Assembly: GCA_000526255.1 (NCBI GenBank) | Contig: JAFS01000001.1 | Span: 248,001 to 312,000 of the forward strand | Length of the DNA: 64,000 bases | DNA from: Verrucomicrobia bacterium LP2A | GTDB lineage: Bacteria; Verrucomicrobiota; Verrucomicrobiia; Methylacidiphilales; Methylacidiphilaceae | Reading direction: 5' to 3' | Shown: piece after piece, positions 682 through 43,927 of the stretch | Layout: every line of letters begins with the position of its first letter | Numbering within the stretch: the stretch's first letter is position 1 | Notes under the pieces: model-generated | What the model saw: only the letters and a program-made list of their open reading frames with translations | The model's database searches: none | Told to the model about the DNA's origin: nothing | Translations under genes and position numbers: made by a program

Positions 682-1584
682 TCAAAGCGGCTGGGCTGGG
701 GCCGCTGGAATGTTCGATTTCTTTACCTGCTGAAAGCCATAGTTGAAAAGGACGGTCGCATCCTTCCACTTGTCCGGACTATGCAGGAGAACCAGCAGAA
801 GAGGGTGGCCGTCTCGTTGACAGGCTGCGGCGTAGGTGTGGCGCGCTTCGTGCGTCCAACCGGTTTTTGCGGGACCCATCCCAGCGTACTTCCCGAGCAG
901 GCGATTGTGGTTGTGGAGAATCCGGAGTTGATTCCCGCTTCGGGTGGCGACGGTGCGGGTCATGAGCATTTGGCGCAGGGACGGGACGTTCAAAACGGCC
1001 TGAAAGATGCGCAGCAGATCGCGGACGGTCGTCATCTGGCCTTCCCGGAAGGAGGCCAAGCCGTGCGGATCGACGAAGTGGGTGTGAAGGCATCCCATCT
1101 CCCAGGCCTTGCGATTCATCTGGTGCACGAAGGCGGGAACCGAGCCGGAAGTCGAGCGTGCGAGCGCTAGAGCGGCGTCATTGCAGGAGCCGACGAGCAG
1201 ATCCTGAACGAGCTCGGTAACCGAAAGCCGCTGCCCGATCCGCAACGGGACATGGGATGGTTCGACCGCCGTATCGGAGGGAAGAACGCTCACGAAGCCG
1301 TGCAATCCGGTCATCTCGTAGACCAGGAGAGCGGTCATCAACTTGGTCGTGCTGGCGGGGGCCAGGGGAGCATCGAGGTTCCGAGCGAAGAGAACGCGAT
1401 TGGTGACCGGGTCGAACAGGAGGGCTGCCGTGGCCTCCACCAATCGGTCCGCCTCCCACTCGCTCTCTACCTCCAAGTAAGAGGAAGCCGCGCTCGCATG
1501 GTGGTGATGGCGAGCCGCCAGAAGGTTGGTGCCACTGACGACCCAAAGGGCTGCCGTGCAGGCGAGGAGCCATGCGCCGTGCAT
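682..1584 (-). CDS. D-alanyl-D-alanine carboxypeptidase (PBP5/6-like, peptidase S11)
   Basis: Periplasmic serine peptidase that trims the terminal D-Ala from peptidoglycan stem peptides. All three penicillin-binding motifs are present: S78-T-T-K81, S133-C-N135 and K240-T-G. I chose the ATG at 1584 because it opens directly into a signal peptide (MHGAWLLACTAALWVVSG); in-frame starts at 1641 and 1671 only add a polar N-tail. About 300 residues means the catalytic domain is complete, but the long C-terminal domain and amphipathic anchor of classical PBP5 are missing or very short. A natural run of four His follows the signal peptide. Forty-six bases separate it from uppP. Confidence 0.9.
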   Translation of the reverse strand: MHGAWLLACTAALWVVSGTNLLAARHHHHASAASSYLEVESEWEADRLVEATAALLFDPVTNRVLFARNLDAPLAPASTTKLMTALLVYEMTGLHGFVSVLPSDTAVEPSHVPLRIGQRLSVTELVQDLLVGSCNDAALALARSTSGSVPAFVHQMNRKAWEMGCLHTHFVDPHGLASFREGQMTTVRDLLRIFQAVLNVPSLRQMLMTRTVATRSGNQLRILHNHNRLLGKYAGMGPAKTGWTHEARHTYAAACQRDGHPLLLVLLHSPDKWKDATVLFNYGFQQVKKSNIPAAPAQPL

Positions 1585-1822
1585 CGTGTTCTGGATCGCC
1601 TTAGGACGATCGCCGGTAGGTAGGGCAAGTAACCCGCGCATTCCGCCCTTCTTGCATCCGGCCCCCCTCAATCGAGTGGGGCGGGACGTGTCGTATGGTG
1701 CTTGGCTCGTCTCGGGCTGTCGAGGAAATTCTCCAGAAGTATTCCTTCGTTAAATGGAGGCTGGGTGCGTTCTGCGATGATCTTCGCCAACCTCCATCTC
1801 CCGTCCGAAAGGGCGGAGCAGT

Positions 1823-1930
1823 TTAGCCGGTCTTGTAACGGAGCCTCTTCTTGTGACGATTCTCGCGCCTGCGCTTGCGACGCTTGTGCTTGTTCATCTT
1901 CGCCTTGCGGCGTTTCTTGAGCGAACCCAT
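1823..1930 (-). CDS. 35-aa very basic protein, AURKAIP1/COX24-like (bS22-type)
   Basis: A 35-codon gene that is easily missed. The product begins MGSLKKRRKAKMNKHKRRKR and ends RLRYKTG; more than half of its residues are Lys or Arg. This matches the short AURKAIP1/COX24 (Mrp-like) bacterial proteins, whose hallmark is the KKRRK-KMNKHK core and which are thought to associate with the ribosome. An AAGGA Shine-Dalgarno sequence lies about nine bases before the ATG at 1930. It is 31 bases downstream of hisG on the same strand and may be cotranscribed. The family match is from memory of the motif; a ribosomal role here is inference. Confidence 0.8.
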   Translation of the reverse strand: MGSLKKRRKAKMNKHKRRKRRRENRHKKRLRYKTG

Positions 1931-1961
1931 GCCGGTAATCCTTCTTGGCGCTTCCCGCCGG

Positions 1962-2840
1962 TCAATAGATGACCTTGTTCAGCGGGTATTCGATAATTCC
2001 CTCCGCGCCCAGCTCCTTCAGTCGCGGTATCAGGTCGCGGACCTGACTCTCATCGAGAACGGTTTCCACGGCAAACCACTCTCCATCGGCCAGCGGGGAG
2101 ACCGTCGGCCTTCGGAGGGCGGGCAAAACGCCCAGCACCGCCTTGATGCCGTCCTTGGCTACGTTCATCTTCAGCCCCACCTTTTCCTCACCGCGCAGCG
2201 CGGCCAAGAGGAGCAAGGCCAGAGACTCGATCTGCTTCCGCCGCTCTCGCTCCGCCCAGACGGAATGGGAGCAGAGAAACTGCGGATAGCTTTGCAGCAC
2301 GGTGTCGACGACACGCAAGTTGTTTGCCTGGAGAGAGGAGCCCGTTTCAGAAATGTCCACGATGGCATCGACCAGCTCGGGGACCTTGACTTCCGTGGCA
2401 CCCCAGGAGAACTCCACCTCCGCCTTTACGCCATGCCGCTCCAGGTAGCTGGAGACCAGACGCACCGCTTCGGTGGCGATCCGTTTCCCCTGTAGATCCT
2501 TAGGGCTTCGGATCGGCGAGCTCTCGTGAACGGCGAGCACCCAGCGCACGGGAAGCCGAGTCGAACGGTTGTAGGGCAGTTCGCAGACGAGCTGGACGGA
2601 GGCTTCATTTTCCAAGATCCAATCCATCCCGGTGATGCCGCAATCGAGGAAACCCTGGGCGACATAGCGAGCCAATTCCTGCGGCCTGACGAGCCGGACT
2701 TCCATTCCGGGATGATCGATATACGGCCGATAACCTCGGGAGGAACGACTGATGACGTAGCCAGCGCGGCGAAAAAGCTCAACGGTCGCTTCCTCCAGGC
2801 TGCCTTTGGGAAGCCCAATGCGTAGCTTAGTCTCACTCAT
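1962..2840 (-). CDS. hisG: ATP phosphoribosyltransferase, long form
   Basis: Catalyses the first step of histidine biosynthesis, joining ATP and PRPP to give phosphoribosyl-ATP. The 292-residue protein opens with the family start ([18 protein letters not shown]) and carries the substrate-binding stretch around residues 50-75 ([13 protein letters not shown]). Its length and the C-terminal segment of about 80 residues mark the long form with an ACT-like feedback domain, which is normally histidine-inhibited and does not need HisZ. The ATG at 2840 is the only sensible start. No other his genes are nearby, so the pathway is scattered. The small basic gene follows closely downstream. Confidence 0.93.
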
Positions 2841-2895
2841 TGGAAAAGAGTGGCGATGCTACGAAGGAATGGGCACCCCTGTAAAGAGGTTTTCT

Positions 2896-3435
2896 TCACG
2901 ACGATGTCCCCGTGGAAAGGCGGGGGGAATCGGGCGAAACTGAGGAGGGCTCCTCCTGTTGGAGAGAGTCGTGGAGCATGCGATAGACGGTTTCCAGATC
3001 CGACGGATGGACCCGAGTCCCGGCCGTGGTCGTCATGAAGTTGGCGTCATGGCTCCAACGGGGGACCAGATGCCAATGGAGATGCCCTTCGATGCCCGCT
3101 CCGGCTGCCGCTCCCTGATTGAGGCCGATGTTGAACCCGTGCGGTGCAAACGCCCGCTCCAATGCGGCCAGGAGCTTCCGGAGCATCGCCATGGCTTCGA
3201 GCAGCTCGGTCTCCGTCAGCTCATCGAGGCGGGCGACGGACCGGTACGGAACCACCATCGAATGGCCGGCATTGTAGGGAAAGCGGTTGAGCAGGCCGAA
3301 GCTCGTGCGGCCGCGCAGGAGGACGAGGTTTTCCCGATCCCTAGACTCCCTGGCGATTTCTTCGAAAAGGGTGCTCTTCGGAGGGGTGGGATCGTCGAGA
3401 TAAGCCTTGCGCCAGGGTGCCCACAAGTGTTCCAT
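2896..3435 (-). CDS. HIT family hydrolase/transferase
   Basis: Histidine-triad nucleotide-binding protein, likely hydrolysing or transferring nucleoside-phosphate adducts such as diadenosine polyphosphates. The triad is seen as HLHWHLVPRW around residues 110-120, preceded by the helix NQGAAAGAGIEGH typical of the Ap4A phosphorylase-like branch. The N-terminus MEHLWAPWRKAYL is the usual opening of this branch. I chose the ATG at 3435 because an upstream in-frame start would overlap the divergent holA. Only 22 bases separate the two divergent start codons, so their promoters must overlap the coding regions or each other. The last 40 residues are Ser/Pro-rich and unconserved in appearance. Confidence 0.88.
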   Translation of the reverse strand: MEHLWAPWRKAYLDDPTPPKSTLFEEIARESRDRENLVLLRGRTSFGLLNRFPYNAGHSMVVPYRSVARLDELTETELLEAMAMLRKLLAALERAFAPHGFNIGLNQGAAAGAGIEGHLHWHLVPRWSHDANFMTTTAGTRVHPSDLETVYRMLHDSLQQEEPSSVSPDSPRLSTGTSS

Positions 3436-3457
3436 TGCCTGATCCGATCTTATTGCA

Positions 3458-4561
3458 ATGACGCCTCTTGCCGGCAAGAGTAAAGCAATTCATTTCTTCG
3501 GCGGAGAAGACGAATACGAAGCCAAGCGCCTCGCGCGGCTCTTTCTGGAAGAGGAGGGGTTGCGCGAAGATCCTTCCTTCGAGAGCGTTCCTGGAGATGG
3601 GCAGAGCGTGGCGGAGGCGTGCGAGCAGATCGACCGCTTGCGGGACGCCCTCCAATCCGGCTCTCTCTTCGGCCTGCGCAAGGCGGTGCTTTGGAAGGAC
3701 GTCCGTTGTCTCGGGGCCAAGGGGATAGGCCGGGACGAAAGGCTCTCTGCGGCGCTCGCGAGCCTGCTCGCGGTCCTGCGTGGACTCGCTCCCGAAGAAG
3801 TCATCCTGGTGATTCAGGCAGGAGCCGTGGATGAACGGCGACAATTCCTGCGCGGGCTGCGTGAAATCGCTTCCGTTCGTCTCTTCGCCCCTTTGGGAAG
3901 CGATCGAAACGAAGACCGGGCCTTGGGCGAGATCGCCGAGCGGATGCGCAGACGCGGTCTTTCCCCGACGAGCGAGCTCTCCGAGCGTTTGCTCGCCGCT
4001 TCCGGCGGGGACCGTCAGCGCCTCGATTCTCAAATCGAGAAGCTGGCCCTGTATCAGGCCGATGAGCGGCCGGTCGCCCCGGAAGATCTCAGGCTGCTCT
4101 TGGGCGGCGGGGGCGATGGGGTGGTCTGGGACTTCTGCGATGCTGTCGTGGGGGGAAGCGCTTCCGAGGCGCTGCGCGAGCTGCGAACGCTCTTGCGCCA
4201 GGGGGAGAGCGAAGTGGGTCTCCTCTTGGCGTTGGTCCAGAAGATCCGTCTGGCGGCTTTAGGCCTTCTCCTCTGGGAAGGCGGCTGGGTCCACCTGAGC
4301 GGCTCCGGCCGCTTCGTCAAAGCAGAGGTGGCTCCCGAAGCCCAGGACTACTTCCCGAAGAAGAAGAGCGGAGCCCCGGTCAGTCCCTGGCAGCTGGGCA
4401 TGACGGTCGCCGCGGCAAAAACGCGGAGTGCGCGGTTTTGGGTGAACGCCCTTCTTGCCCTTTCGGAGGCGAACCGGAGAATGTTGCGCGGAGGCGAGAA
4501 ACAGGTCGGCTTTGAGCTGGCTCTCTTGCGGCTTCTCCGGGAGAAGCCCGCTTTGCCATGA
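3458..4561 (+). CDS. holA: DNA polymerase III subunit delta
   Basis: Clamp-loader subunit that opens the beta sliding clamp. The 367-residue protein starts with the HolA pattern FFGGEDEYEAKRLARLFLEE, has an AAA+-like but Walker-less N-terminal domain and ends in the helical collar domain (ELALLRLLREK). Family proteins are about 320-350 aa, so it is full length. It overlaps the following glycosyltransferase by four bases (ATGA), which suggests translational coupling. It is divergent from the HIT gene with a very short gap. Sequence identity across HolA is low; the call rests on N-terminal motif, length and overall pattern. Confidence 0.85.
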   Translation: MTPLAGKSKAIHFFGGEDEYEAKRLARLFLEEEGLREDPSFESVPGDGQSVAEACEQIDRLRDALQSGSLFGLRKAVLWKDVRCLGAKGIGRDERLSAALASLLAVLRGLAPEEVILVIQAGAVDERRQFLRGLREIASVRLFAPLGSDRNEDRALGEIAERMRRRGLSPTSELSERLLAASGGDRQRLDSQIEKLALYQADERPVAPEDLRLLLGGGGDGVVWDFCDAVVGGSASEALRELRTLLRQGESEVGLLLALVQKIRLAALGLLLWEGGWVHLSGSGRFVKAEVAPEAQDYFPKKKSGAPVSPWQLGMTVAAAKTRSARFWVNALLALSEANRRMLRGGEKQVGFELALLRLLREKPALP

Positions 4562-29229: not shown

Positions 29230-30856
29230 GCCGTTGCCGCCTTCTAGCATCTCCGTCACTCCAGACCTCCCGTCCATCCCGAGCCAGTAAGGGAGACCCG
29301 GGTTGCGTCTCCATTGCCTTTCGGCATTTCCGTCACTCCAGACAATCAGGCCAACCGAAGCCATCATGGAAGAGATGGGTCTCCATTGCCTTTCGGCATT
29401 TCCGTCACTCCAGACACATGCAAACTGAAATCGAACGACTCAAGAGGGAGGTGATGTCTCCATTGCCTTTCGGCATTTCCGTCACTCCAGACGGTAAGAT
29501 GAAAGAATACATCATGAAGGAAGCGTCGAGTCTCCATTGCCTTTCGGCATTTCCGTCACTCCAGACCCTCCGATTATATCGCGATGCCCAAGCTTGAGCG
29601 ATTCAGGTCTCCATTGCCTTTCGGCATTTCCGTCACTCCAGACATGGCGAGCAGTGGGGTCATGGTGCAGACGACGAAGGAAGAGTCTCCATTGCCTTTC
29701 GGCATTTCCGTCACTCCAGACGGTGTAGGCATGATGAACGAACCAAATGCAGTGAAGAAAATTGGTCTCCATTGCCTTTCGGCATTTCCGTCACTCCAGA
29801 CACAACTCCTACTCGCTACAAAAAATGATCCAGCTTGGCTAGTCTCCATTGCCTTTCGGCATTTCCGTCACTCCAGACAAGGACACTCCGGGACTGGAGC
29901 GCTTCTGGCATGAACTTGTCTCCATTGCCTTTCGGCATTTCCGTCACTCCAGACAAATACAAGAGCTACAATTTTAAGGTGCCGTTCTCGTGTCTCCATT
30001 GCCTTTCGGCATTTCCGTCACTCCAGACGGAATGGAAGAGTAATGAAGCGCGAAACGGAGAGTGATGTCTCCATTGCCTTTCGGCATTTCCGTCACTCCA
30101 GACTGGAGTGGATAGACGCAAGGCTCGTCTCAATGCTTCATTGGTCTCCATTGCCTTTCGGCATTTCCGTCACTCCAGACAAGTACATCACTCTGAGGGA
30201 TGTGTGTTTATCGTTGGGGGGTCTCCATTGCCTTTCGGCATTTCCGTCACTCCAGACTGAGCAGGAGCTTCATGTTTCCTCGATTTGCCCCACGGTCTCC
30301 ATTGCCTTTCGGCATTTCCGTCACTCCAGACACGGCCGCAGCATGGAGGCGGAGTTGCGATTTATCCTGTCTCCATTGCCTTTCGGCATTTCCGTCACTC
30401 CAGACGCGTAGGTGATTCAGAAGATTCAAACCGGTCGCGGTGGGTCTCCATTGCCTTTCGGCATTTCCGTCACTCCAGACTTTTTGTACATCCCTTGAAG
30501 CGGTTCGGCGCGTGCGTTTGGTCTCCATTGCCTTTCGGCATTTCCGTCACTCCAGACCGCAGCGTGCCGGGATGGATGGCTTGACCGCCACGCATCGTCT
30601 CCATTGCCTTTCGGCATTTCCGTCACTCCAGACCCCCGGATACTCCCGAGGGTTGGAAAGAGATCTGGGTGTCTCCATTGCCTTTCGGCATTTCCGTCAC
30701 TCCAGACACCGCCACGCATCACGCGAGGCGGATTTGCTGGAAACGTCTCCATTGCCTTTCGGCATTTCCGTCACTCCAGACTTGATGGTCATGGAACTCA
30801 GGAGATTGGAAATTGGAAAGTCTCCATTGCCTTTCGGCATTTCCGTCACTCCAGAC
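29230..30856 (-). CRISPR. CRISPR array: 21 intact 37-bp repeats, 20 spacers, plus a degenerate repeat at the leader-distal end
   Basis: Intact repeats begin at 29307, 29379, 29456, 29530, 29607, 29685, 29765, 29842, 29918, 29992, 30067, 30144, 30221, 30295, 30369, 30444, 30521, 30597, 30671, 30745 and 30820, and appear identical. On the plus strand each starts GTCTCCATTGCC and ends CACTCCAGAC; a short TGCC/GGCA hairpin sits in the middle. Spacers are 35-43 bases. The unit at 29230-29266 keeps the right half but is mutated in the left half, so the left end is the old end. The minus-strand repeat ends ATGGAGAC, like the usual ATTGAAAC crRNA tag. Both facts say transcription runs leftward. Confidence 0.97.
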
Positions 30857-31063
30857 TGCGGCCTTGCAAGTGCTTGACTATCAAGATCGGTAACGCCGAA
30901 TAGGTCGGGAGCACAAAAACGTGTATATCGACTTTCCAAGAAAAGAGAAACGTCCAAATTGAGTTTGTTCGTAACAGATTGATGAACAATAGTATGCAAC
31001 CTAGGTCGGCAAGTGCCTGAAGAAGGACTGGAACGAGTCGCGACCTGGAGGAGAGACTCGGCG
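30857..31063 (-). promoter_or_regulatory. Probable CRISPR leader
   Basis: 207 bases between the newest repeat and the end of cas2, clearly more AT-rich than the surroundings. On the minus strand TATACA (complement of 30922-30927) lies 17 bases behind TTTCTC, a weak promoter match about 60 bases before the first repeat. No gene is seen in it. Confidence 0.6.
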
Positions 31064-31339
31064 TCATACCAGATAACAGACCACTCGCTCGGAGCAGACC
31101 ATGGTCCCTGCGGTGCGGATCTTCTTGGCGCACTTGGCGTCAAGGCAATAGGCAACGATACGATCTTCATCCAGGTCGAGCTCGTTTTGGACCTTGCCCC
31201 AAAATGCATCGAATTGCTCTGGCTCAAAATAGCACTCGAAGACGCTGTACTGCACGCGCATCCCATGATCCTCGCAAATCCGCGCGATTCGCGTGAGGCG
31301 GCGCGGATCGGAGACATCGTAAGCAATCACCGTTAACAT
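31064..31339 (-). CDS. cas2: CRISPR adaptation endoribonuclease-fold protein Cas2
   Basis: Partner of Cas1 in spacer acquisition. 91 residues from the ATG at 31339: MLTVIAYDVSDPRRLTRIAR carries the conserved Asp8, followed by VQYSVFECYFEPEQFDAFWG, the typical Cas2 pattern. GGAG lies about eight bases before this start. A GTG at 31435, with its own AGGAG overlapping the cas1 stop, would add 32 residues in frame; family length favours the shorter form. It lies behind cas1 and directly before the leader. Confidence 0.93.
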   Translation of the reverse strand: MLTVIAYDVSDPRRLTRIARICEDHGMRVQYSVFECYFEPEQFDAFWGKVQNELDLDEDRIVAYCLDAKCAKKIRTAGTMVCSERVVCYLV

Positions 31340-31446
31340 CTGCTTTTCTCCGGGCGGGGAGCTTTTGTAGGGGAGGGGAGCGAAGGCTTCCTCCCACCAG
31401 CCCATGCCTTGCGGATCCTTGGAATCGCCCGTCACCTGGCTTGCTC

Positions 31447-32457
31447 CTAGTTCATCAGGAAGGGCTCGAACTTTTCCGGAGCGTCCAACGCGGCCTTGTA
31501 GGCTGTGGCTTGACGCTCCAGTTCCGTCCGCAGCGTAGTGCGGCAGTTGACGGCTTCGGAGAGAAATTGGCGCTCCATCCGGCGTTCGTATTGGAGAAGA
31601 AATTTCTTCTTGCCCTCGGAAGCCAGATAGACCCCGCCAAGATCCCGCTTTTCAAAGAGGTCTCGGTTGAGGATCTGATGGCTGAATAGGTCAAGGGCAA
31701 GGGCTTCCACGAGCACGGGCCGGAAGGGTTCGATCAGGTCAAGGGCAAGAGACCAGCGGCCGTCTTCGGTGACATGGAGGAGCCCCAAGGCTGGATCGAG
31801 CCCGTGGGCGTGAAGGAAGTTCACCGCTTCGGCGTAGAGAAGCACCGCTCCATAGGAGATACAGGCGTTGACCACATTGAGAGGGGGCCGTGTCGACCGC
31901 CGCTCAAAGGGATAGTCAGGAGGCAGAAAAGTGGCCCAGGCATCGAAGTAGCGAGCGGTCGAGGCTCCTTCCAAGCCCCGGAGCTCGGCAATGGATGTGG
32001 CACGACCCGCTTGCGCAAGTATACGCTCAAGGGCGCTCAAGGCCGAGGTGGCATCCGAGTCGCGGTTGGCCGCAAGGCGCTGGATCAAGCGGCGCTGGTT
32101 GTAGATCTTTGCGGTTACGATTCGGCCGGCCATCGCTAGGGCAAAGGCGGGATCGAGCGTCTTGGCATATTGCTTGAGGCGCCGCTGGCCATGATCGTTT
32201 TGTGCCGGAAGAAAGCCGCCGAGAAAGCGGCCGTTGGTTCCTAAAACACTAATGGGGATCCCTCGGCGCAAGAGTTCCGCCAAAGCCGGGGAGGTGAAGG
32301 AAACGGTCTCCTCGATCGTAAGCCGGTCGAGATCGGCGATTGGAATTTCCCGCAGCACCTCCGGGTTGCCGGCTCCGTTTCCAGAGCCGAGAACGACCAG
32401 CCGTTCGGAGAGGAGCCCGATCTTCGTATAGCTTTGAACGATACAGGCGCTGGGCAT
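31447..32457 (-). CDS. cas1: CRISPR adaptation integrase Cas1
   Basis: Metal-dependent integrase that inserts new spacers. 336 residues, normal length. Catalytic residues are visible: E163 in LRGLEGASTARYF, H228 in LGLLHVTEDGRW and the acidic D240/E243 in LALDLIEPFRP. The N-terminal strand domain ends and the helical domain begins around residue 90. Start is the ATG at 32457. The gene pairs with cas2 on the minus strand, opposite to the cmr operon, so adaptation and interference modules have separate promoters. Confidence 0.95.
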   Translation of the reverse strand: MPSACIVQSYTKIGLLSERLVVLGSGNGAGNPEVLREIPIADLDRLTIEETVSFTSPALAELLRRGIPISVLGTNGRFLGGFLPAQNDHGQRRLKQYAKTLDPAFALAMAGRIVTAKIYNQRRLIQRLAANRDSDATSALSALERILAQAGRATSIAELRGLEGASTARYFDAWATFLPPDYPFERRSTRPPLNVVNACISYGAVLLYAEAVNFLHAHGLDPALGLLHVTEDGRWSLALDLIEPFRPVLVEALALDLFSHQILNRDLFEKRDLGGVYLASEGKKKFLLQYERRMERQFLSEAVNCRTTLRTELERQATAYKAALDAPEKFEPFLMN

Positions 32458-32620
32458 GGGGAGTCGTCCGTCCTGGAATTTTCGCTTTTAGGGAAGCTCG
32501 GGGCTTCCGCCTTCCCCGTTTACTCCTTACGTTAAGCTCGAGGGAGAGCTTTCGCCGCTTCGGTGACGTCCGAGGACATCGGGACTCGCTATCCAGGAGG
32601 ACGGCTCGGAGATTGCAGGA

Positions 32621-33826
32621 TCAAGCTGGGATGACATCGATGCCGAAGGATCCGCGGCGGGGCAAGAGGTAATCCAGCTCCGCGGTAAAACCAGCAGCCT
32701 TCAGCTTCCGTCGCAAGGAGCTGAGGAGCTTCCGGAGATCCTCGGTGTCGCATTTTTCCCATCCGCGCGCCGCCTGGTGCTGGAAGGATCCCTCGGGATG
32801 GTCTTTGGCCCACCGGCTCCGGAATTGGTTCAGGGCATCGATCGCGTTCTTCTGTGCGAGAAATGGACGTGTGCCCTTCCGGGGGCAGTCGAGGAGGAAC
32901 GCATAGAGAAGATGCTCCCGTCCGGAAAGACCAACAAGGCTCCCATTGACCTCGAGCGTGGGTCGATCGTGGCCAAGGGTAATGCGAGGTTTCTGGGTCA
33001 AAGAGGCAAGTTGTTGCGAGCAAGAACGAACCAAAGCGGTGAAGTGACCGGGAAAGGAGCCGATTTGGCGCGGGAAGAGCAGGCGGAGGGGAACAAAAGG
33101 AAGATCGGCAAGCTCAATGCGAGCAGCATCGGAAGATACAGCTTGAACGCCCCCGGTCTTGGGATCCCGATAGGTGTGCTCGAGCGGCGGCTTGGTGGGA
33201 AAGAAGAACGAGGGGGAAAGCCCGGGGGAATCGAATGGTTCGCTGACGAGGACATGGGTGATGCGGTCTTCGGGCCTGCCCAAGAGCGAGACACAGGCAT
33301 AAAGGAGCGCGCTCATGCTCTTCCTTCCGCCGGCGACCGACGCGATGAGGAGCGTATCGGGGTTTTCTGTGATCCCGCGAATCTCTTCCAGGAGAGCGTC
33401 GGCAAGGGCCTCGTTGTCCAAAGCGGTGCGAACGTCCTCGATCCCGCGCATTCTGCCTTCATCGGCTACAGGCCGTCCCAAGACCTGGATCTCCTCAAGG
33501 ATCAGCAGATGAGACTGCTGACGCCGATCGCGCAAGAGGCTCCGACGAAGCGTCTCCCACACCGAACGCTCGCCGAAAGCGGGGGATACGGAATGAAGCT
33601 GCTCCTCCGCGCAACGCTTTCCCGCGGCGGTGGTGAGGATCCGAACTCGATGGGGGATGAGGGCGGGCTGCTCGTGCGCTAAGGCCCAGACGGTTTCGGT
33701 CACGACGGCGGGCGTCATTCCGGTTACCGCAAGCAAGACGATCTCCTTCGGCGGCCTGTGGGGAGCCGTTGGGGCGGGGTGGAGCCGGATCGATTGGTGT
33801 CCGGCATCGGATCGGGGCGGGGTCAT
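32621..33826 (-). CDS. CARF-domain protein of NE0113/TIGR02584 type with winged-helix-like C-terminus
   Basis: 401 residues. The N-terminal 28-215 region reads as a CARF fold: IVLLAVTGMTPAVVTETVWA, then SVAGGRKSMSALLYACVSLL and ITHVLVSEP. This is the CRISPR-associated NE0113 family, often annotated automatically as a Csm6-like ring nuclease. The last 110 residues resemble an OmpR-type winged helix: ITLGHDRPTLEVNGSLVGLS, then LRKLLSSLRRKLKAAGF and a closing hairpin. I see no HEPN or PD-(D/E)xK motif in the C-terminal half. It could degrade the signal, or be a signal-controlled DNA-binding protein. It precedes cas1 on the same strand by 163 bases. Confidence 0.78.
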   Translation of the reverse strand: MTPPRSDAGHQSIRLHPAPTAPHRPPKEIVLLAVTGMTPAVVTETVWALAHEQPALIPHRVRILTTAAGKRCAEEQLHSVSPAFGERSVWETLRRSLLRDRRQQSHLLILEEIQVLGRPVADEGRMRGIEDVRTALDNEALADALLEEIRGITENPDTLLIASVAGGRKSMSALLYACVSLLGRPEDRITHVLVSEPFDSPGLSPSFFFPTKPPLEHTYRDPKTGGVQAVSSDAARIELADLPFVPLRLLFPRQIGSFPGHFTALVRSCSQQLASLTQKPRITLGHDRPTLEVNGSLVGLSGREHLLYAFLLDCPRKGTRPFLAQKNAIDALNQFRSRWAKDHPEGSFQHQAARGWEKCDTEDLRKLLSSLRRKLKAAGFTAELDYLLPRRGSFGIDVIPA

Positions 33827-33912: not shown

Positions 33913-34662
33913 TCATTTTCCGCTCGGCCCAGGGCCCGCCAGCACCCCGATCGCGGTGTAGTTGTCGTCGTCCAGTAGGGCCCGCGCTCTTTCCTGGCGA
34001 AGCGCTTCCATCCGGTGGAGCCAATCGGAGGCGGTTGCGCTCCGCCCGAGCTCCCGCTCCATCTCCTCTTCGGGAAGAGGACCCCAAAAGCCATCGCTGC
34101 AGAGGAGGAGCGCATCTCCAGGCTCGATCTCCCCTTCCTGCGAGACGATCGGATTCGGGGGCTCAGGACTGCCGAGGCAGCACAAGAGGATGTTCCGGCG
34201 GGGGTGGGAGCGGATCTCCTCGGGCCGGAGGATCCCGGCATCGCAGAGCGCCTGCGGGACGCTCTGATCCTTCGATTGGAAGAAGACTCTCTTTTCCCGA
34301 AACCAGTAGAAGCGCGAGTCGCCGAGGTGGACCGCGCGGAGGAGGCGGCCGTCGCAGACGGCGGCCACGATCGTCGATCCCATTCGCCTGAGCGCCGGTT
34401 CGGCGGCCTGCCGTTCGTGAATCGCCCGATCGGCTTGGAGGACAGACTCCGAGAGGGCGGCGGAGGATAGGGAGGGATGGTCTCGGAACGCCTGGAGGAA
34501 GCGGCTCACCGCCAGCCGGGAAGCCTCTTCGCCTCCTCGCTCCCCTCCGAGGCCGTCGGCCACTACCCAGGCGGTCAAGCCGCTGCAGCTCTCCCATCCC
34601 CAGGAGTCTTCGTTGTGCGCCCTCCCGCCCCGATCGGTGAGGAAAGCGGTGTCGAGGTTCAT
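33913..34662 (-). CDS. PP2C-family Ser/Thr protein phosphatase
   Basis: Metal-dependent phosphatase of 249 residues. Motifs: LTDRGGRAHNEDSWGWE at the N-terminus (the metal-binding RxxNEDS), VVADGLGGERGGEEAS, LLLCSDGFWGPLPEEEM and DDDNYTAIGVL near the end. These carry the four conserved Asp residues of the family. The ATG at 34662 overlaps the stop of the upstream methyltransferase gene (ATGA), which fixes the start. No Ser/Thr kinase gene is nearby in the window. Confidence 0.9.
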   Translation of the reverse strand: MNLDTAFLTDRGGRAHNEDSWGWESCSGLTAWVVADGLGGERGGEEASRLAVSRFLQAFRDHPSLSSAALSESVLQADRAIHERQAAEPALRRMGSTIVAAVCDGRLLRAVHLGDSRFYWFREKRVFFQSKDQSVPQALCDAGILRPEEIRSHPRRNILLCCLGSPEPPNPIVSQEGEIEPGDALLLCSDGFWGPLPEEEMERELGRSATASDWLHRMEALRQERARALLDDDNYTAIGVLAGPGPSGK

Positions 34663-35483
34663 GGGGGCAAGTCGGGCGGAGTGGTTTCGGGAGGGGAGGT
34701 CCCGCTGGCCGGCTTCTCCGCGGTAACGAGCCTCGGCGTCACTCCGAGGACTCCGAACCAGAAGCGCCAACCGAGCGGGCGGCAGGAGACGGCGCGCAGC
34801 CCCGCTTCCTCGAGCCGCTGGACGTACTCCTCTGTCCGAAAGAGGTCTGCGATCAAGATCCTCCCGCCGGGCTTGAGTACCCGGATCGCTTCGTCGATCG
34901 CCTCTCTCCGGCTATCCTTCTCGGGAATGTTGTGGATGGCGAGGTTGCTGACGACCAGGTCGAAGGAGGCGTCCGGAAAGGGCAAGGCCCGCATGTCCCC
35001 CGTGTGGAGCTCGCAGCGATCGGCTACGCCTTCGCTCACGAGGTTCGTCCGGGCCGATTCGAGGGAGTTGCCCGACTGGTCCTCTGTCCGCCAGAGGTCG
35101 AGGCCGACCGCTCGTCCCTCGGGCAGCAGCTTGCCCAGCATGGCCAGGATGGCTCCGCGGCCGCAGCCTATCTCCAGAATCCGCTCGTTTCCGCGCAGGT
35201 CGAGTCCCGCGAGCAGCTCCGCCCAGACGGCAAACTTTCCCCGTATCGTGGAATAGAAGAAGCTTGCGGGCACTTGAAGCAGTGCTGCTCCGGCAAGGAA
35301 CTCGAGCGCTCGCTGGAGGAGCGGTTTTGGGGACATAGGGAGGAGAGAGAGGCCGAGGAGAAGGAGCCCGCCTCCCGCAGGCCAGAGAAGGCCCGCCAGG
35401 GCTCTCCCCCCTCCGTCGATCCCGTACTGTCCGCGGTGGGAAGCGAGCTGTCGTGAGAGCGCTTGTTTCGAACCCGGATTCAT
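34659..35483 (-). CDS. Class I SAM-dependent methyltransferase with N-terminal membrane segments
   Basis: 274 residues. Two hydrophobic stretches (LLWPAGGGLLLLGLSLLP and ALEFLAGAALLQVPASFF) precede a Rossmann methyltransferase domain: ERILEIGCGRGAILAML (motif I), GDMRALPFPDASFDLVVS and EAIRVLKPGGRILIAD. This combination suggests a lipid or quinone-like substrate at the membrane; inference only. The ATG at 35483 shares its bases with a possible ATG of the divergent gene. Confidence 0.82.
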   Translation of the reverse strand: MNPGSKQALSRQLASHRGQYGIDGGGRALAGLLWPAGGGLLLLGLSLLPMSPKPLLQRALEFLAGAALLQVPASFFYSTIRGKFAVWAELLAGLDLRGNERILEIGCGRGAILAMLGKLLPEGRAVGLDLWRTEDQSGNSLESARTNLVSEGVADRCELHTGDMRALPFPDASFDLVVSNLAIHNIPEKDSRREAIDEAIRVLKPGGRILIADLFRTEEYVQRLEEAGLRAVSCRPLGWRFWFGVLGVTPRLVTAEKPASGTSPPETTPPDLPP

Positions 35484-35634
35484 GCAGGAAGAGAGCTATC
35501 GTAACCGATCCGCCGCGTTTTCTCCATGCTTTCCGCTCGCCGAGTCATGGGCCATCTCCCCGCCTCGGAGGGAAAAGATCATCGAGGCGGCGGCTCGACC
35601 CCGTCTCGAAGGAGAGGTAGGAATCGGAGACGTG

Positions 35635-36384
35635 ATGCGGCCTTTCGAGATGAACTCCTTCGCCGGGAAACGGCTCCTGGCGCTCGTGCGGGACGGGGAT
35701 TACGCCCATGCTGGGGAAGAGGAGGCGATCGACCGGGTCTTCGGGGATCTTCCGAAGCGTTCCGACCGATGGCTCCTGGACGTTGGCTGCGGGCGGGGAG
35801 GGACGGCCGATTACCTGCGGAAACGGGGGTGGGGCCAGGTTGTGGGGATCGACCGGGATGGCGATTCCCTCGCCTATGCCCGCGCCCGGTACCCGGGGGT
35901 CGAGTGGGTCGAGGGCGATGTCTGCGCTGCTCCCCGGTACCTCTCGAGAAAATTCATCCAGATCTACCTGCTGAACGTCTATTATGCCTTGGAAGCGCAG
36001 CGCGACGCCCTGCTCGCCTTGCGCCAGGTGGCCGAAGAGGGAACAGAGCTTCGGATCTTCGACTACCTCGATCGAGGCGGATTTGCGGAGGATCCGCTGG
36101 AGGTCGGCGGAGAGAGAATCGTTCCCCATCCGGTCGTGACGGAGAGAGTCTCTCGGGATCTCGCGACGACGGGCTGGCGGCTTCTTTCGATGGAGCCGCT
36201 TTCCGAGGAGTACCGCCGCTGGTACGCCGCTCTGGCTCGCCGCATCGAGGAGAGGGCTCCGGAGATCGTCGCCCGGGGAGGCGAGGAAGCCTTGGACTAT
36301 CTTTGCACCGTCTATCGGGGCATCCTGGGCAAGATCGAGGAGGGACTGCTGGGTGGCGTGCTGGTGCGGGCCGCGGCAGCCTGA
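35635..36384 (+). CDS. Class I SAM-dependent methyltransferase
   Basis: 249 residues from the ATG at 35635 (MRPFEMNSFAGKRLLALV), which has GGAG just upstream. The SAM-binding motif is WLLDVGCGRGGTADYLRKRG, followed by GIDRDGDSLAYARARYPG and the acidic loop EGDVCAAP. The frame is open back to an ATG at 35482, but that would overlap the divergent gene start, and the added 51 residues look unconserved. The arrangement of motifs resembles small-molecule methyltransferases of the sarcosine/glycine or ubiE type; the substrate is unknown. Confidence 0.78.
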   Translation: MRPFEMNSFAGKRLLALVRDGDYAHAGEEEAIDRVFGDLPKRSDRWLLDVGCGRGGTADYLRKRGWGQVVGIDRDGDSLAYARARYPGVEWVEGDVCAAPRYLSRKFIQIYLLNVYYALEAQRDALLALRQVAEEGTELRIFDYLDRGGFAEDPLEVGGERIVPHPVVTERVSRDLATTGWRLLSMEPLSEEYRRWYAALARRIEERAPEIVARGGEEALDYLCTVYRGILGKIEEGLLGGVLVRAAAA

Positions 36385-36504: not shown

Positions 36505-38448
36505 GTGAAGCGGATCCTGATTTTTACGGCTGGATTCGGGGAAGGCCATAACACGGCTGCGCGCAACATCCAGGACGCGCTCGAATGGGTCGCTCCGGAG
36601 GAGGCGCACGTCGAGATCGTCGATCTCTTCGAATCGTGCTACGGGCGATTCAACGGGGTGCTGCGCCAGGCCTATCTGACTGCGATCAATCGGACCCCGC
36701 TTCTCTGGAAGGGGATCTATTCGCTCTTCGATCGGACGACCTTTCTGGAAGACGGCATCTCGGCCTTGGCTCGGATGCAGCGGTCCCTCGACTGGCTGCT
36801 GCGCGAGGTAGAGCCCGACGCGGTGCTCTGCACCTACCCCATCTACAATTACCTGATCGAGCAAATCTTCCGGGACGGAAGGCGCAAGAACTTCTCCCAT
36901 ATCACGGTCGTCACCGATTCGATTAGCGTCAACTCGTTCTGGCACCGGGGCCCGAGCGACGTCTTCGTGGTCCCCAACGAGGAGACGGCGGTGGTGCTTC
37001 GCGCGGCAGGGGTGGAGGAGGCGCGCATCCAGGTGTTCGGCTTTCCGGTGCATCTCGATTTTCTGGAAGCCAAGGAGATCGGCTTGGCCGAGGAGCTCGG
37101 AGAGGAACCTCGAATCCTCTACATCATCAACTCGGGAAAGAAGAAGGCGACCAGGATCATTCGGCTTTTGCTCCATCATCCGCGTTGGCGTGCCACCGTG
37201 GTCGTCGGTCGGGATCGAGCGCTCCTCGAGGAGATTCGCGGGCTCGTCGAGGGGTCTGAGGAGAAGATCCGGGTGCTCGGCTGGACCGACAAGATCCCGG
37301 AGCTCCTGATGACCCATCATGCTCTCATCAGCAAGGCGGGGGGTGCCACCGTCCAGGAAGCCGTGGCGGCTCGCTGCCCGATGGTGGTCACGCAGGTCGT
37401 GCCGGGACAGGAAGAGGGAAATTTTGATCTCCTGCGCCGGCGCGGAGTGGCGCTCTACGCGGAGAAGCCGCAGCAGATCATTCAGGCCCTGGAAGAGCTC
37501 TTCGCCGATGAGGGAAGGCTTTGGAGGCGAATGCGGTCGGCTCTGACGGGGATCAGCCGTCCGGATGCCTCGATGCAGATTGCGCGGTTTGTTCTCGATC
37601 GGGCGGCGATCGAAAATGCCGCGCCGGACAACCTGCCCGGGTTTCCCCGAAGAGCTCAGGATCTGCTGCCGAATGGAGCTCTGGAGCCAGCGGAAGCGGC
37701 CCAGGTGCTTCTCTGCGATTTCCACATCCATAGCACCTATTCGGACGGCCGCCTCTCCATAGGGGAGATCGTCGATTTTTATGGGCAGCGAGGCTTCGAT
37801 TGCATCTGCATCACCGATCATATCGTCGATCGGACGCGATTCATCGGGCGAGTCTGCCAGCTTACGGGTCTCGTGCTTTCTCCCGATCTGGTCGGAGAGT
37901 ATTTCGACGTCCTCCGGAGGGAAAAGGAGAGGGCGTGGCGCAAGTACCGGATGATTCTCTTCGCGGGCCTCGAGTTCAACAAGGACGGGTACCGGGCGAA
38001 GAGCTCGGCCCATCTGCTGGGGATCGATCTCCAGGGGCTGATCGATCCGTGCCTCTCCCTACCGGAAATCATCGCGGAGATTCGTGCGCAAGAGGGGCTT
38101 TCGGTGGCCTCTCACCCCCACAAGTTCCAGAGCGTCTGGGGTCCGAACACGCTCTATCTTTGGGAGAACCAGAAGCAGTTCGCCCCGCTGCTCGATGCGT
38201 GGGAGATCGCCAATCGCGACGACCTCTTCGCCCCGATCGGGCTCAAGCGGCTGCCGTTCATCGCCAACAGCGACTTTCACAAGCCCAAGCACATCGATTC
38301 CTGGAAGACGGTGCTCTTTTGCGAGAAGGATCCTCAGGCGATCAAGGAGTGCGTGCGGGTCAATCGCAATGTCGCCCTCACCTTGTACCGCCGCCATCGG
38401 TTCGGATCGCTGCTTCGCTGCCCGGAGGAGGAGCTTCTGCAAGTCTAG
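36505..38448 (+). CDS. Fusion: GT28 (MGDG-synthase-like) glycosyltransferase + PHP phosphoesterase
   Basis: 647 residues with two enzyme domains. Residues 1-370 match processive diacylglycerol glycosyltransferases: FTAGFGEGHNTAARNIQDAL, ITVVTDSISVNSFWHRGPSD, and the donor-binding LISKAGGATVQEAVAARCPM. Residues about 405-640 are a PHP metal-dependent phosphoesterase: CDFHIHSTYSDGRLSIGEIV (HxH), DCICITDHIVD, and FIANSDFHKPK. The start is a GTG at 36505 with TAGACA five bases before it. Possibly a glycolipid synthase combined with a hydrolase acting on its donor or product. The two halves are not usually found in one chain in my knowledge. Confidence 0.83.
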   Translation: MKRILIFTAGFGEGHNTAARNIQDALEWVAPEEAHVEIVDLFESCYGRFNGVLRQAYLTAINRTPLLWKGIYSLFDRTTFLEDGISALARMQRSLDWLLREVEPDAVLCTYPIYNYLIEQIFRDGRRKNFSHITVVTDSISVNSFWHRGPSDVFVVPNEETAVVLRAAGVEEARIQVFGFPVHLDFLEAKEIGLAEELGEEPRILYIINSGKKKATRIIRLLLHHPRWRATVVVGRDRALLEEIRGLVEGSEEKIRVLGWTDKIPELLMTHHALISKAGGATVQEAVAARCPMVVTQVVPGQEEGNFDLLRRRGVALYAEKPQQIIQALEELFADEGRLWRRMRSALTGISRPDASMQIARFVLDRAAIENAAPDNLPGFPRRAQDLLPNGALEPAEAAQVLLCDFHIHSTYSDGRLSIGEIVDFYGQRGFDCICITDHIVDRTRFIGRVCQLTGLVLSPDLVGEYFDVLRREKERAWRKYRMILFAGLEFNKDGYRAKSSAHLLGIDLQGLIDPCLSLPEIIAEIRAQEGLSVASHPHKFQSVWGPNTLYLWENQKQFAPLLDAWEIANRDDLFAPIGLKRLPFIANSDFHKPKHIDSWKTVLFCEKDPQAIKECVRVNRNVALTLYRRHRFGSLLRCPEEELLQV

Positions 38449-41082: not shown

Positions 41083-41118
41083 AGGGGCCCCGCTCGAAAG
41101 GAGAGGGCCCCCTTTTTT
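41083..41118 (+). terminator. Rho-independent terminator after the DUF5069 gene
   Basis: AGGGGCCC (41083-41090) pairs with GGGCCCC at 41105-41111, with a C/T overhang, followed by a run of eight T at 41113-41120. A clear intrinsic terminator, placed between the DUF5069 gene and the metal importer operon. Confidence 0.8.
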
Positions 41119-41165
41119 TTGAATTTCGACTGGCATCGCTCCCAGGGCTCGCCATCCTTGAGACA

Positions 41166-42119
41166 ATGAAGGGTCGGTATCAGCATTGGGGGATGCGGTC
41201 AGCACTCGGGCTTCTTCTCGCCTGGGGGATGCCGGCCGTTTGCGGCTGGTCGAGTCCGATGCCTCCCGCCCGGCCCCTTCGGGTGGTCACCACGATCGCT
41301 CCGCTCTACTCCTTTGTGAGGAGCATTGCCGGGGAGACGGTGGAGCTTTCCAATCTCCTGCCGCCCAATGCGGAGCCTCATGACTACGTGTTGAGCCCGG
41401 GGGATGCGCGCCGCCTGGCGGATGCCGACCTGATCATCCGAAACGGATTGGGGCTGGAGGGGTTCTTGGAAGGGGTCCTTGCCCAGATCGATCGGTCGAA
41501 GCTGCTCGATGCGAGCGTCGGGATCGTTCCGCTGCCGGAATGGACGCCGCCGGGCTCGTCCTCGGCGCGGGGGCGGGCGGGAGGGGCTCCTCCGAACCCG
41601 CACGTCTGGCTCGATCCCCTGAACGCCATGACAGAGGTGGAAACCATCGCACGCGAGATCTGCCGGCGCGACCCGGAAAAGGCGCGCGAGCACCGGGCGC
41701 GCGCAGAGCGACTGCTTGCCCTGCTGCGGCGGATCGACGATCGCTATCGCTCTTCGCTGGAGCCTTTGCCCGACAAGAAGATGGTCTCGGATCACCAGGC
41801 GTTCGCCTACCTGGCGGCGAGGTATGGGATCCGGGTGATCGCCTTCCTGGATGCGAGGGGGCATGCGGGGCTTTCCCCGAGGCTCTTGGCCTGGGCGATG
41901 GCGGCGATCGTTCGCGAACGGGTTCCGGTTCTCTTCAGCGAGGTCAATCAGGTGAGCTCCGAGCTCGCGAGCCTCTCGCGTGATATCGGAATCCCGATCC
42001 TCCCGCTCGATTCGATGGAGAGCGGTGCCTTGCGCTCGGATCTCTACGAGCGGGTGGCGGAAGGCAACCGGCAGGCCCTGGTGCGTGCTTTCCAAGGGCA
42101 TGCTGCGACACAGCCGTAG
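41166..42119 (+). CDS. znuA: Metal ABC transporter substrate-binding protein (ZnuA/TroA family)
   Basis: Periplasmic metal-binding lipoprotein-like or secreted protein of 317 residues. A signal peptide (MRSALGLLLAWGMPAVCGW) leads to the TroA fold: VVTTIAPLYSFVRSIAGETV, first ligand His in NAEPHDYVLSP, second in NPHVWLDP, third in VSDHQAFAYLAARYG, and a late Asp in PILPLDSM. A His at the third position is typical of zinc-type binders, whereas many Mn binders have Glu. The His-rich loop of enterobacterial ZnuA is absent. The ATPase gene follows after seven bases. Confidence 0.88.
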   Translation: MKGRYQHWGMRSALGLLLAWGMPAVCGWSSPMPPARPLRVVTTIAPLYSFVRSIAGETVELSNLLPPNAEPHDYVLSPGDARRLADADLIIRNGLGLEGFLEGVLAQIDRSKLLDASVGIVPLPEWTPPGSSSARGRAGGAPPNPHVWLDPLNAMTEVETIAREICRRDPEKAREHRARAERLLALLRRIDDRYRSSLEPLPDKKMVSDHQAFAYLAARYGIRVIAFLDARGHAGLSPRLLAWAMAAIVRERVPVLFSEVNQVSSELASLSRDIGIPILPLDSMESGALRSDLYERVAEGNRQALVRAFQGHAATQP

Positions 42120-42126
42120 GAGGACC

Positions 42127-42891
42127 ATGGAGCCGGAGGAGGGAGAGGAGACGGGGAGCGAGCGAGCGACCGTGACGATGCGTCGCTCCTCCGATCCGGG
42201 GTGGCTCTTGCAGACACGCGGCCTGGCGGCCGGCTATGGGGACGAAGCGGCTTTCGAGGACGTTTCGCTCGAGGTCTTCGGGCGCGAGATCGTTTCACTC
42301 ATCGGGCCGAACGGAGCGGGGAAGACCACCTTGCTGCGCTGCCTGGCCGGCATCCTGCCTCCGCGCGAAGGGAGTGTCGAGAAGGCTCCCGGTCTCCGCG
42401 TCAGCTATCTGCCGCAAAAGCTTGCACTCGATCGGCTCCTTCCCGTCACCGTGGCGGAATTCCTCTCGCTGCGGCTGGGCCACTCTCTTTTTCGGTGCGA
42501 CTGGAAGGGAGGAGAACAAGCCGAAAGCCTGGAGGAGCTCGGGGTCTTGAATCTCCTCGATCGCCGCCTTGGGGAACTTTCCGGAGGGGAGCTCCAGCGG
42601 GTGCTCGTTGCCTCGGCTCTGGCGAAGCGGCCGCAGCTCCTGCTGCTGGATGAACCGGCGACCGGAGTCGATCTCTTGGGGGCGGCCGCGTTCGACGCCC
42701 TGCTCCACCGGCTCCGAGATCGCGACGGGCTGGGGATCCTTCTGGTCTCCCACGATCTCCATCTGGTCCACCACATTTCGGATTGGATCTATTTCCTCAA
42801 CCGGAGGATCCTCGCCAGCGGCCCGCCGAAGGAAGTCTTGCGCGAAGAGCGTCTGGCGGCCGCCTACCAGCGCTTTCCCCATCCGGGTTGA
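42127..42891 (+). CDS. znuC: Metal ABC transporter ATP-binding protein
   Basis: 254 residues. Walker A GPNGAGKTTLLRC, Q-loop SYLPQKLALD, signature ELSGGELQRVLVASALA, Walker B LLLLDEPATGVDLLG and the switch His in VSHDLHLVHH. The pattern matches the cluster-9 (zinc/manganese) importer ATPases. It starts with the ATG at 42127; the first 25 residues are a charged tail. A 136-base gap without a gene lies before the permease. Confidence 0.9.
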   Translation: MEPEEGEETGSERATVTMRRSSDPGWLLQTRGLAAGYGDEAAFEDVSLEVFGREIVSLIGPNGAGKTTLLRCLAGILPPREGSVEKAPGLRVSYLPQKLALDRLLPVTVAEFLSLRLGHSLFRCDWKGGEQAESLEELGVLNLLDRRLGELSGGELQRVLVASALAKRPQLLLLDEPATGVDLLGAAAFDALLHRLRDRDGLGILLVSHDLHLVHHISDWIYFLNRRILASGPPKEVLREERLAAAYQRFPHPG

Positions 42892-43027
42892 ATGCGGGAG
42901 TGGGTGCAGCGAAGGGCTTGCGATCGGAGTCGGCGCAACGGGAGGAGAACGCAACCGGGACCAAGAAGAAGCCTTTCCGGCGGGGAAGGGTTCCGGCAAA
43001 GAAGAAGCGAGAACCAAAGGTGAAACG

Positions 43028-43927
43028 GTGATCCTCGATTTTCTCTCCTATGATTTTCTGCGGAGGTCGCTTTCCGCCGCCGCGCTGGCCGGGCCGGTCT
43101 GCGGATTTCTGGGCGTTTTTCTCACGGCGCGGGGCATGGCCTTTTTCAGCGATGCTCTGGCCCATACGGCGATTACCGGAGTCGCCTTGGGATTGCTCGG
43201 GCAGGAAGCAGTCGAGCTCTGGCTCGGTCTCAAGATCCCCCTGGGGATCTCTTCCGGGCTTTTAGTCCTCTGGTGTCTGGCTGCGGCGTGGGTGATGGAC
43301 TCGCTCTTTGCCAGCGCGCGCTGGCGTCCCGACACCGTGATGGCCTTCTGCTTCACGGGAAGCGTCGCCTTCGGGGTGCTGATCCTAGGCAAGCTCGGCC
43401 GCTATGGCTTCCTCGAGCAGACGCTCTTCGGCGACATCAACGCGAACTCTTGGGGGGACGTGGCGCTGCTCGGCGCCGTAGCCGGGGGCGCGGCGGTTGT
43501 GATCCGGATGCGACTGCGGGAGTTTCTCCTGATCGTCCTGGATGAGGATCTCGCTGCGGCCGACGGAATCCCCGTCCGCCGACTCAACCGGGTCCTGGTG
43601 CTCTTGGTCGCCGCGGTGGTTGCCGTCGCCCTGAAGCTGCTGGGAGCCCTGCTCGTGAGCGCCCTGCTGGTCGTGCCTGCGGCGGCGGCCCGGCTGATCG
43701 CCCCCAATCTTCGCCTCCTGCTCGTTTTCGCAGCGGCGGGAGGGTTTCTCAGCTCCGTGGGCGGGGTGATCCTCTCCTTCAATCTCGATTTGGCAACGGG
43801 GCCGACGATCGTTCTGGCCCAATTGGCTTTCCTGCTCGTCGCCCTCGGCTTGCAACCGCTCTTCCGGCGCGGGAGAACGGCTCAGAGCAGAGGGAGCAGC
43901 CTGCCGACCGACTCCCAGTCGAGCTGA
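43028..43927 (+). CDS. znuB: Metal ABC transporter permease
   Basis: 299 residues with about eight membrane helices. The ABC-3 family pattern is visible: LGVFLTARGMAFFSDALAHT, LWCLAAAWVMDSLF, LLVSALLVVPAAAARLI and TGPTIVLAQLAFLLVALGL. The start is a GTG at 43028 right before the first helix. Its 3-prime end overlaps the convergent SOD-like gene by 46 bases, an unusual amount. With znuA and znuC it forms a complete importer. Confidence 0.9.
   Translation: MILDFLSYDFLRRSLSAAALAGPVCGFLGVFLTARGMAFFSDALAHTAITGVALGLLGQEAVELWLGLKIPLGISSGLLVLWCLAAAWVMDSLFASARWRPDTVMAFCFTGSVAFGVLILGKLGRYGFLEQTLFGDINANSWGDVALLGAVAGGAAVVIRMRLREFLLIVLDEDLAAADGIPVRRLNRVLVLLVAAVVAVALKLLGALLVSALLVVPAAAARLIAPNLRLLLVFAAAGGFLSSVGGVILSFNLDLATGPTIVLAQLAFLLVALGLQPLFRRGRTAQSRGSSLPTDSQSS

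Follow-up and report, generated by a model that had tools for sequence, protein, structure and literature searches.

Comparative analysis of a glycosyltransferase-PHP phosphoesterase fusion protein in Verrucomicrobiota

Both halves of the protein considered here have described counterparts. For plant MGD1, excerpts of one study name H155 as the catalytic base (PMC7419546). For PHP-type enzymes, excerpts of another describe members that split phosphodiesters and list nine metal ligands for one of them, the diesterase No-PDE (PMC11656708); papers on TM0559 of Thermotoga maritima give its structure and call it a protein of unknown function. A further point of reference is PlcP-Agt, by which proteobacterial methanotrophs free diacylglycerol from phospholipid and glycosylate it (PMC9239053). 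The excerpts of that study use LpxH as an outgroup for PlcP, compare Agt with enzymes of the GT4 group and report PlcP to be absent from verrucomicrobial methanotrophs.

The stretch of DNA analysed here, in the following called the window, comprises 64,000 nucleotides of contig JAFS01000001.1 from Verrucomicrobia bacterium LP2A. It carries a gene that joins a putative glycosyltransferase (GT) and a putative PHP phosphoesterase on one chain.

Domain layout of the fusion protein

The reading frame runs uninterrupted on the forward strand from a GTG start at 36505 to a TAG stop ending at 38448 and encodes 647 amino acids; close homologues align from residue 1. The earlier note had described one chain consisting of a GT28 MGDG-synthase-like domain and a PHP domain with HxH and NSDFH motifs, and our analysis bore this out for the chain and for both domains. 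Independent genomes carry this architecture in a single frame as well, so the fusion is no sequencing slip.

The GT domain (residues 1-368, 36505..37608, forward strand) matches PF06925 (MGDG_synth) over residues 15-182 with 62.1 bits (cut-off 25). By sequence, it also matches MGD1 (4wyi) over residues 2-372 and a processive diacylglycerol glucosyltransferase (9wde) over residues 93-362. The AF2 model, of GT-B type in this half, superposes on 4wyi over residues 1-370 with a Z-score of 34.0 (rmsd 2.7, 318 residues aligned), and plant MGD1 is the closest of the solved structures in predicted fold. H15 (36547..36549, +) aligns in sequence with H155 of MGD1. Alignments of relatives further delineate the motifs KAGGATVQEA (residues 277-286, 37333..37362, +) and PGQEEGN (residues 300-306, 37402..37422, +), both intact in the window, where the residues H15, G279, G280, G301, Q302 and E303 represent the catalytic histidine and the glycine-rich loops. 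The NCBIfam equivalog model for diglucosyl diacylglycerol synthase (PRK13609) was not reached, with 154.5 bits against a cut-off of 500. By these comparisons the GT half agrees in predicted fold and in conserved sites with UgtP/MGD1-type glycolipid synthases, and in the window it is probably an active one.

A linker of about 30 residues follows (369-397, 37609..37695, +), which is predicted to be flexible, with a pLDDT below 50 for residues 371-396. The stretch corresponding to residues 368-401 measures 28-48 amino acids in 53 of 55 relatives, the outliers being L033 with 67 and L050 with 108. The model of the whole window protein (mean pLDDT 82.5, pTM 0.58) does not predict how the two domains are placed relative to each other.

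The PHP domain (residues 398-640, 37696..38424, +) matches PF02811 over residues 405-440 with 28.3 bits (cut-off 26.4). Much stronger is its match to TM0559 (2anu), which covers residues 400-636 by sequence (203 bits) and residues 399-629 in the AF2 model (Z 31.5, rmsd 1.7, 219 residues aligned), consistent with the PHP barrel fold. When the PDB was searched with the PHP profile, 2anu was the single strong relative with 253 bits, followed by the next match at 29 bits. Nine metal ligands are predicted, H407, H409, D414, H439, E490, H503, H537, D590 and H592, all of them found in the window and in the same order as those of No-PDE when mapped by motif rather than by superposition. The HxH ligands H407 and H409 (37723..37731, +) are present in 56 of 56 aligned fusions, and the NSDFH motif (residues 588-592, 38266..38280, +) with the ligands D590 and H592 in all 55 that extend that far.

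We compared the PHP half with NCBIfam function models, and all scored below their cut-offs (given second): HisJ (17.4 versus 90.2 bits), 3',5'-nucleoside bisphosphate phosphatase (22.5 versus 400), RNase RNM (22.3 versus 375), PolX (29.6 versus 426) and cyclic phosphate dihydrolase (13.6 versus 500). We therefore assigned no substrate. From the alignments a complete, TM0559-type PHP metal site is predicted, and the domain is very likely an active hydrolase; that its substrate is related to lipids is a tentative suggestion. With the conserved sites intact in both halves, the window protein looks competent on both sides.

Distribution and genomic context

The closest named loci, with 89-90% identity, belong to Methylacidimicrobium tartarophylax, a Candidatus Methylacidiphilaceae MAG and M. 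cyclopophantes, which suggests that the genome is closely related to those of the verrucomicrobial methanotrophs. Our homology search yielded 56 related loci, one from a record titled Planctomycetota and most others from Verrucomicrobia. Within the own order of the window, 46 of 62 genomes contain the PHP subfamily, as do 64 of 293 in a second verrucomicrobial order (that of L007). A few of these matches lie in shorter frames; among those that we read, six look truncated at contig ends, one is L052 with its deleted GT and one is a broken frame. In a sample of 387 genomes from the phylum, nine contained the PHP subfamily (E 1e-10), every match lying in a frame of at least 646 amino acids, and it was not found at this threshold in the other 378. 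Of the 194 genomes in another phylum sample, 66 gave a match to the complete fusion query (1e-20); seven of these matches span both halves, and in the remaining 59 genomes no match extends beyond residue 407.

Among 199 genomes of Planctomycetota there was no full-length PHP relative. Ten matched at 1e-6, none of them over more than 55 of 243 positions and with about 30 bits; matches this short and weak do not belong to this PHP subfamily. We also considered whether the PHP half came from a mobile element or a virus and rejected this, as searches with this half gave no match among plasmids and no confirmed relative among viral contigs.

Two variants of the architecture were noted. One genome (G693) encodes two different fusion copies (L230 and L231), with the GT and PHP sites intact in both. 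L063 (genome G078, positions 1498-4392, reverse strand) is a 994-aa frame with about 310 extra residues ahead of the GT that have no Pfam hit; G608 (L285) has a 43% identical stretch ahead of its GT, in a different frame.

As to whether this is a common and known architecture with an assigned role, it is common in two orders, and the open-access literature yielded no paper that describes the GT-PHP architecture or its evolution, or assigns it a role.

We compared the neighbours at 52 of the 56 related loci, those holding all or part of the fusion, after removing frames that overlap the fusion gene. No neighbour family occurred in more than nine of the 52 loci, and a shared operon or pathway indicated by neighbours was therefore rejected. 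Smaller groups do exist: a biotin-protein ligase and a metallo-beta-lactamase-type protein lie nearby in four Methylacidiphilaceae loci, quinolinate synthase occurs in four loci and an ABC ATPase in five. A frame of about 614 amino acids without a Pfam hit lies downstream of the fusion in six loci (L040, positions 2043-3884; L009, L033, L036, L042 and L049).

In the window itself, two divergent SAM-dependent methyltransferase genes (34659-36384), whose listed starts overlap by 2 bases, are located just upstream of the fusion. A few genes downstream, at 41094-43927, lie zinc/manganese-type ABC transporter genes for the binding protein and the ATPase, and a frame that follows resembles the permease by eye. 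Further upstream (29239-33826), a CRISPR array with 21 copies of one repeat (29290-30856) is followed on the reverse strand by cas2 (31064-31435) and cas1 (31447-32457), and by a gene for a Csm6/NE0113-type ring nuclease (32621-33826, reverse strand).

Erosion of the glycosyltransferase and persistence of the single halves

For comparison of the two halves, we scored 15 GT key sites, picked from motif regions already seen to be conserved in alignments, together with the nine PHP ligands. The set comprised 104 distinct fusions, obtained after removal of 51 near-identical copies (≥99.5%) and eight partial loci, six of which are apparently cut by a contig end; the other two are L170, which is the GT-deleted L052 again, and L238 with its broken frame. 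As a control we used 24 GT-only relatives, excluding the own-genome paralogue L002 (26-28% identical), and all 24 carry one identical residue at each of the 15 sites.

Among the fusions, 75 keep all 15 GT sites, four have lost one or two and 25 have lost four to nine. These 25 eroded fusions show changes at 152 of 375 GT sites versus none of 225 PHP ligands, and each of them has at least one altered scored site within the KAGGATVQEA motif. The other 79 show changes at 6 of 1185 GT sites and 3 of 711 PHP ligands. Two of these three PHP changes are in L039, which is cut by a contig end, and the third is E490V in L019; all nine ligands are kept in the remaining 102 of the 104 fusions. L019, the sole fusion with a changed PHP ligand besides that truncated one, has an intact GT, and either a sequencing error or a reverse case is possible. 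In L052, the GT half is deleted save for about 30 residues and the PHP half is kept.

The eroded members are spread over two families of the window's order, f86 (genus g205) and f87, and several lines in the order of L007. On a tree of 103 PHP domains (24 eroded, one deleted, 78 intact), erosion corresponds to five changes, or six with the GT deletion, and at least four of the erosion changes are forced by well-supported branches. Parsimony on this unrooted tree counts changes rather than losses; we infer that the erosion changes are losses. Identical GT substitutions are shared across assemblies, namely by L035/L051, by L040/L042, by L011/L023/L037/L054/L148 and by fourteen f87 genomes. Most relatives are MAGs, in which the absence of a gene is weak evidence and substitutions within open frames are stronger.

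We considered a hidden second, intact fusion in the eroded genomes, and none was found at E 1e-10 in nine (G194-G202) of the 17 genomes searched. Four of these (G194, G195, G198 and G202) contain besides the fusion only a 26-28% identical paralogue, and in the other five (G196, G197, G199, G200 and G201) no second GT was seen at E 1e-10.

The eroded GT sequences remain under constraint. Their dN/dS was 0.08-0.25 in nine pairs (L035/L051, L040/L042, L011/L054, L023/L054, L011/L023, L011/L037, L023/L037, L037/L054 and L033/L040) and 0.036-0.113 in seven f87 pairs, values that are rough because several dS exceed 1 in both sets. Since dN/dS is well below 1, the eroded GT looks like a retained pseudo-glycosyltransferase. 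The ratio of dN in the GT to dN in the PHP half, where defined, was 3.7-7.3 in eight of the nine eroded pairs, versus 1.5-2.8 in 15 of 16 intact pairs, the last one (L013/L045) reaching 5.06; it ranged from 1.4 to 5 in the f87 pairs, with some at 1.4-2.7. This ratio separates the eroded and intact classes imperfectly. The model of the eroded L037 (pLDDT 78.8) again matches MGD1 4wyi best (Z 33.3, rmsd 2.4, 316 residues aligned), a match that is not independent because the alignment behind the model includes intact relatives.

Family f87 additionally contains free-standing GTs. All 15 that we read have 15 of 15 sites intact, and they are nearer to the fused GT, with 35-40% identity to that of the window, than to the own-genome paralogue, with 26-29%. 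In 14 f87 genomes we read an eroded fusion, and ten of these (G638, G639, G648, G649 and G651-G656) also gave an intact free GT; both functions can therefore persist on separate chains, with the fused GT as a pseudoenzyme. In a quick GT tree, the free f87 GT lies near GT-only relatives of other orders, on a long stem and with weak support, which does not decide between duplication and import.

The PHP half is not indispensable either, as relatives have an intact GT without it. Nine genomes of the window's own order (G607, G608 and G610-G616) contain the GT family and no PHP match at E 1e-10, and the five of their GTs that we read are all intact. In G608, which shares its genus code with the fused G078 and G609, the frame ends just past the GT, and its GT groups beside fused members of its own genus, whereas four PHP-less GTs of families f83/f84 group beside the fused L161; support for the two groupings is modest, with SH-aLRT values of 84 and 87. 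Among the 16 own-order genomes without a PHP match, seven (G620, G624, G625 and G643-G646) have a completeness of 65-83%, and the gene may just be lacking from these incomplete sequences.

The earlier note had also taken the fusion to imply a shared pathway, perhaps leading to a new glycolipid. Because each half is kept without the other (GT eroded with PHP ligands intact in 25 of 104 fusions, GT deleted in L052, GT without PHP in nine genomes), the idea of a one-chain pathway is weakened, and a new glycolipid finds no support here.

Possible functions and relation to known systems

We favour, with some reserve, a two-headed protein in which a glycolipid synthase is tethered to an independently useful membrane phosphoesterase. 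The GT half would sit on the inner membrane and glycosylate diacylglycerol or a comparable lipid, and the tethered PHP half would cleave a phosphate ester on the membrane or close to it, perhaps that of a lipid or of a lipid precursor. Several lineages appear to have turned the GT into a conserved pseudo-glycosyltransferase, and comparative evidence thereby supports a PHP activity that is useful without catalysis by the fused GT. The PHP half is probably what many relatives keep the protein for. From the retention of the pseudo-GT we infer that this domain serves the PHP enzyme in some way other than catalysis, for instance by docking or sensing; it presumably persists as a membrane- or ligand-binding docking module, and a docking or regulatory role of some kind is somewhat favoured.

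A more specific reading, for which we see a limited chance, is that the GT half is or becomes a sensor, its glycolipid-synthase fold being reused to sense membrane, lipid or UDP-sugar and to position or gate a new class of membrane phosphoesterase (TM0559 type). If so, the window copy would represent the ancestral, bifunctional state and about five lineages the state of a pure sensor, and lipid glycosyltransferases would have turned into regulatory pseudoenzymes repeatedly and independently.

It is doubtful that two unrelated enzymes were joined by chance and kept by inertia, with neither a common pathway nor docking. The loss or retention of each half alone and the variable neighbourhood (at most nine of 52 loci) would fit such a history, but useless baggage would not show a dN/dS well below 1 in the eroded GT, nor would a single deletion of the GT (L052) be expected of it, and all nine PHP hits in the sample of 387 genomes lie within frames of at least 646 amino acids.

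A lipid-remodelling enzyme would be a one-chain analogue of PlcP-Agt, its PHP half releasing diacylglycerol from phospholipid (or phosphatidate) for glycosylation by the GT half. The reported absence of PlcP from verrucomicrobial methanotrophs, the existence of phosphodiester-splitting PHP enzymes and the nearest relatives of the window, Methylacidimicrobium and Methylacidiphilum, speak for it. Yet about five lineages combine an eroded fused GT with an intact PHP half, the nine own-order genomes mentioned above have the GT family without a PHP being found, and no common neighbour hints at phosphate or lipid metabolism, so that we consider this analogue unlikely.

That the PHP half serves the fused GT by clearing its by-product or controlling its substrate, through hydrolysis of UDP, UMP or sugar-nucleotide, recalls the pyrophosphate hydrolysis proposed for polymerase PHP domains. 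This idea is nearly excluded because each half is kept without the other: the PHP half stays conserved in fusions whose GT no longer has its conserved sites, and GT-only relatives manage without a fused PHP. Finally, although the eroded members come from MAG-titled records or many-contig genomes, their open frames, the same substitutions in different assemblies and the low dN/dS make it hardly credible that the pseudo-GT proteins are assembly artefacts.

Related bacteria carry a single gene in intact, pseudo-GT, GT-deleted and PHP-less form, which constitutes a natural experiment. It offers a way to test what an uncharacterised PHP subfamily does, whose TM0559 crystal structure was released in 2005, bears on the membrane lipids of verrucomicrobial methanotrophs and cautions against annotating all fusion proteins as glycolipid synthases.

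Both halves belong to known superfamilies, and it is their joining and its evolution that we did not find in the open-access literature. On the GT side, the UgtP-type glucosyltransferase (9wde) and plant MGD1 (4wyi, 4x1t), both detected by the GT profile, share the GT-B fold, the catalytic histidine and the glycine-rich loops and lack a PHP half. The GT-only Verrucomicrobiota relatives (L065-L087) are 35-46% identical in the GT half and have all 15 key sites, but their match ends with the GT. PlcP-Agt would follow the same logic if the PHP half releases diacylglycerol; it differs in being encoded by separate genes. The phosphoesterase half of the window protein is of the PHP type. On the PHP side, the diesterases Sb-PDE and No-PDE have nine metal ligands in the same order, as mapped by motif from excerpts of PMC11656708. 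They possess no GT, and by sequence only the N-terminal PHP motif (residues 400-443) aligns with their homologue 3e38. TM0559 is free-standing, without a GT, and its unknown function lends no assignment. It is nevertheless about 41% identical across the whole PHP half, with the same predicted fold, and has the ITDHIVDR, DAWEIANRDDLF, NSDFH and SWKT blocks in common with the PHP half of the window.
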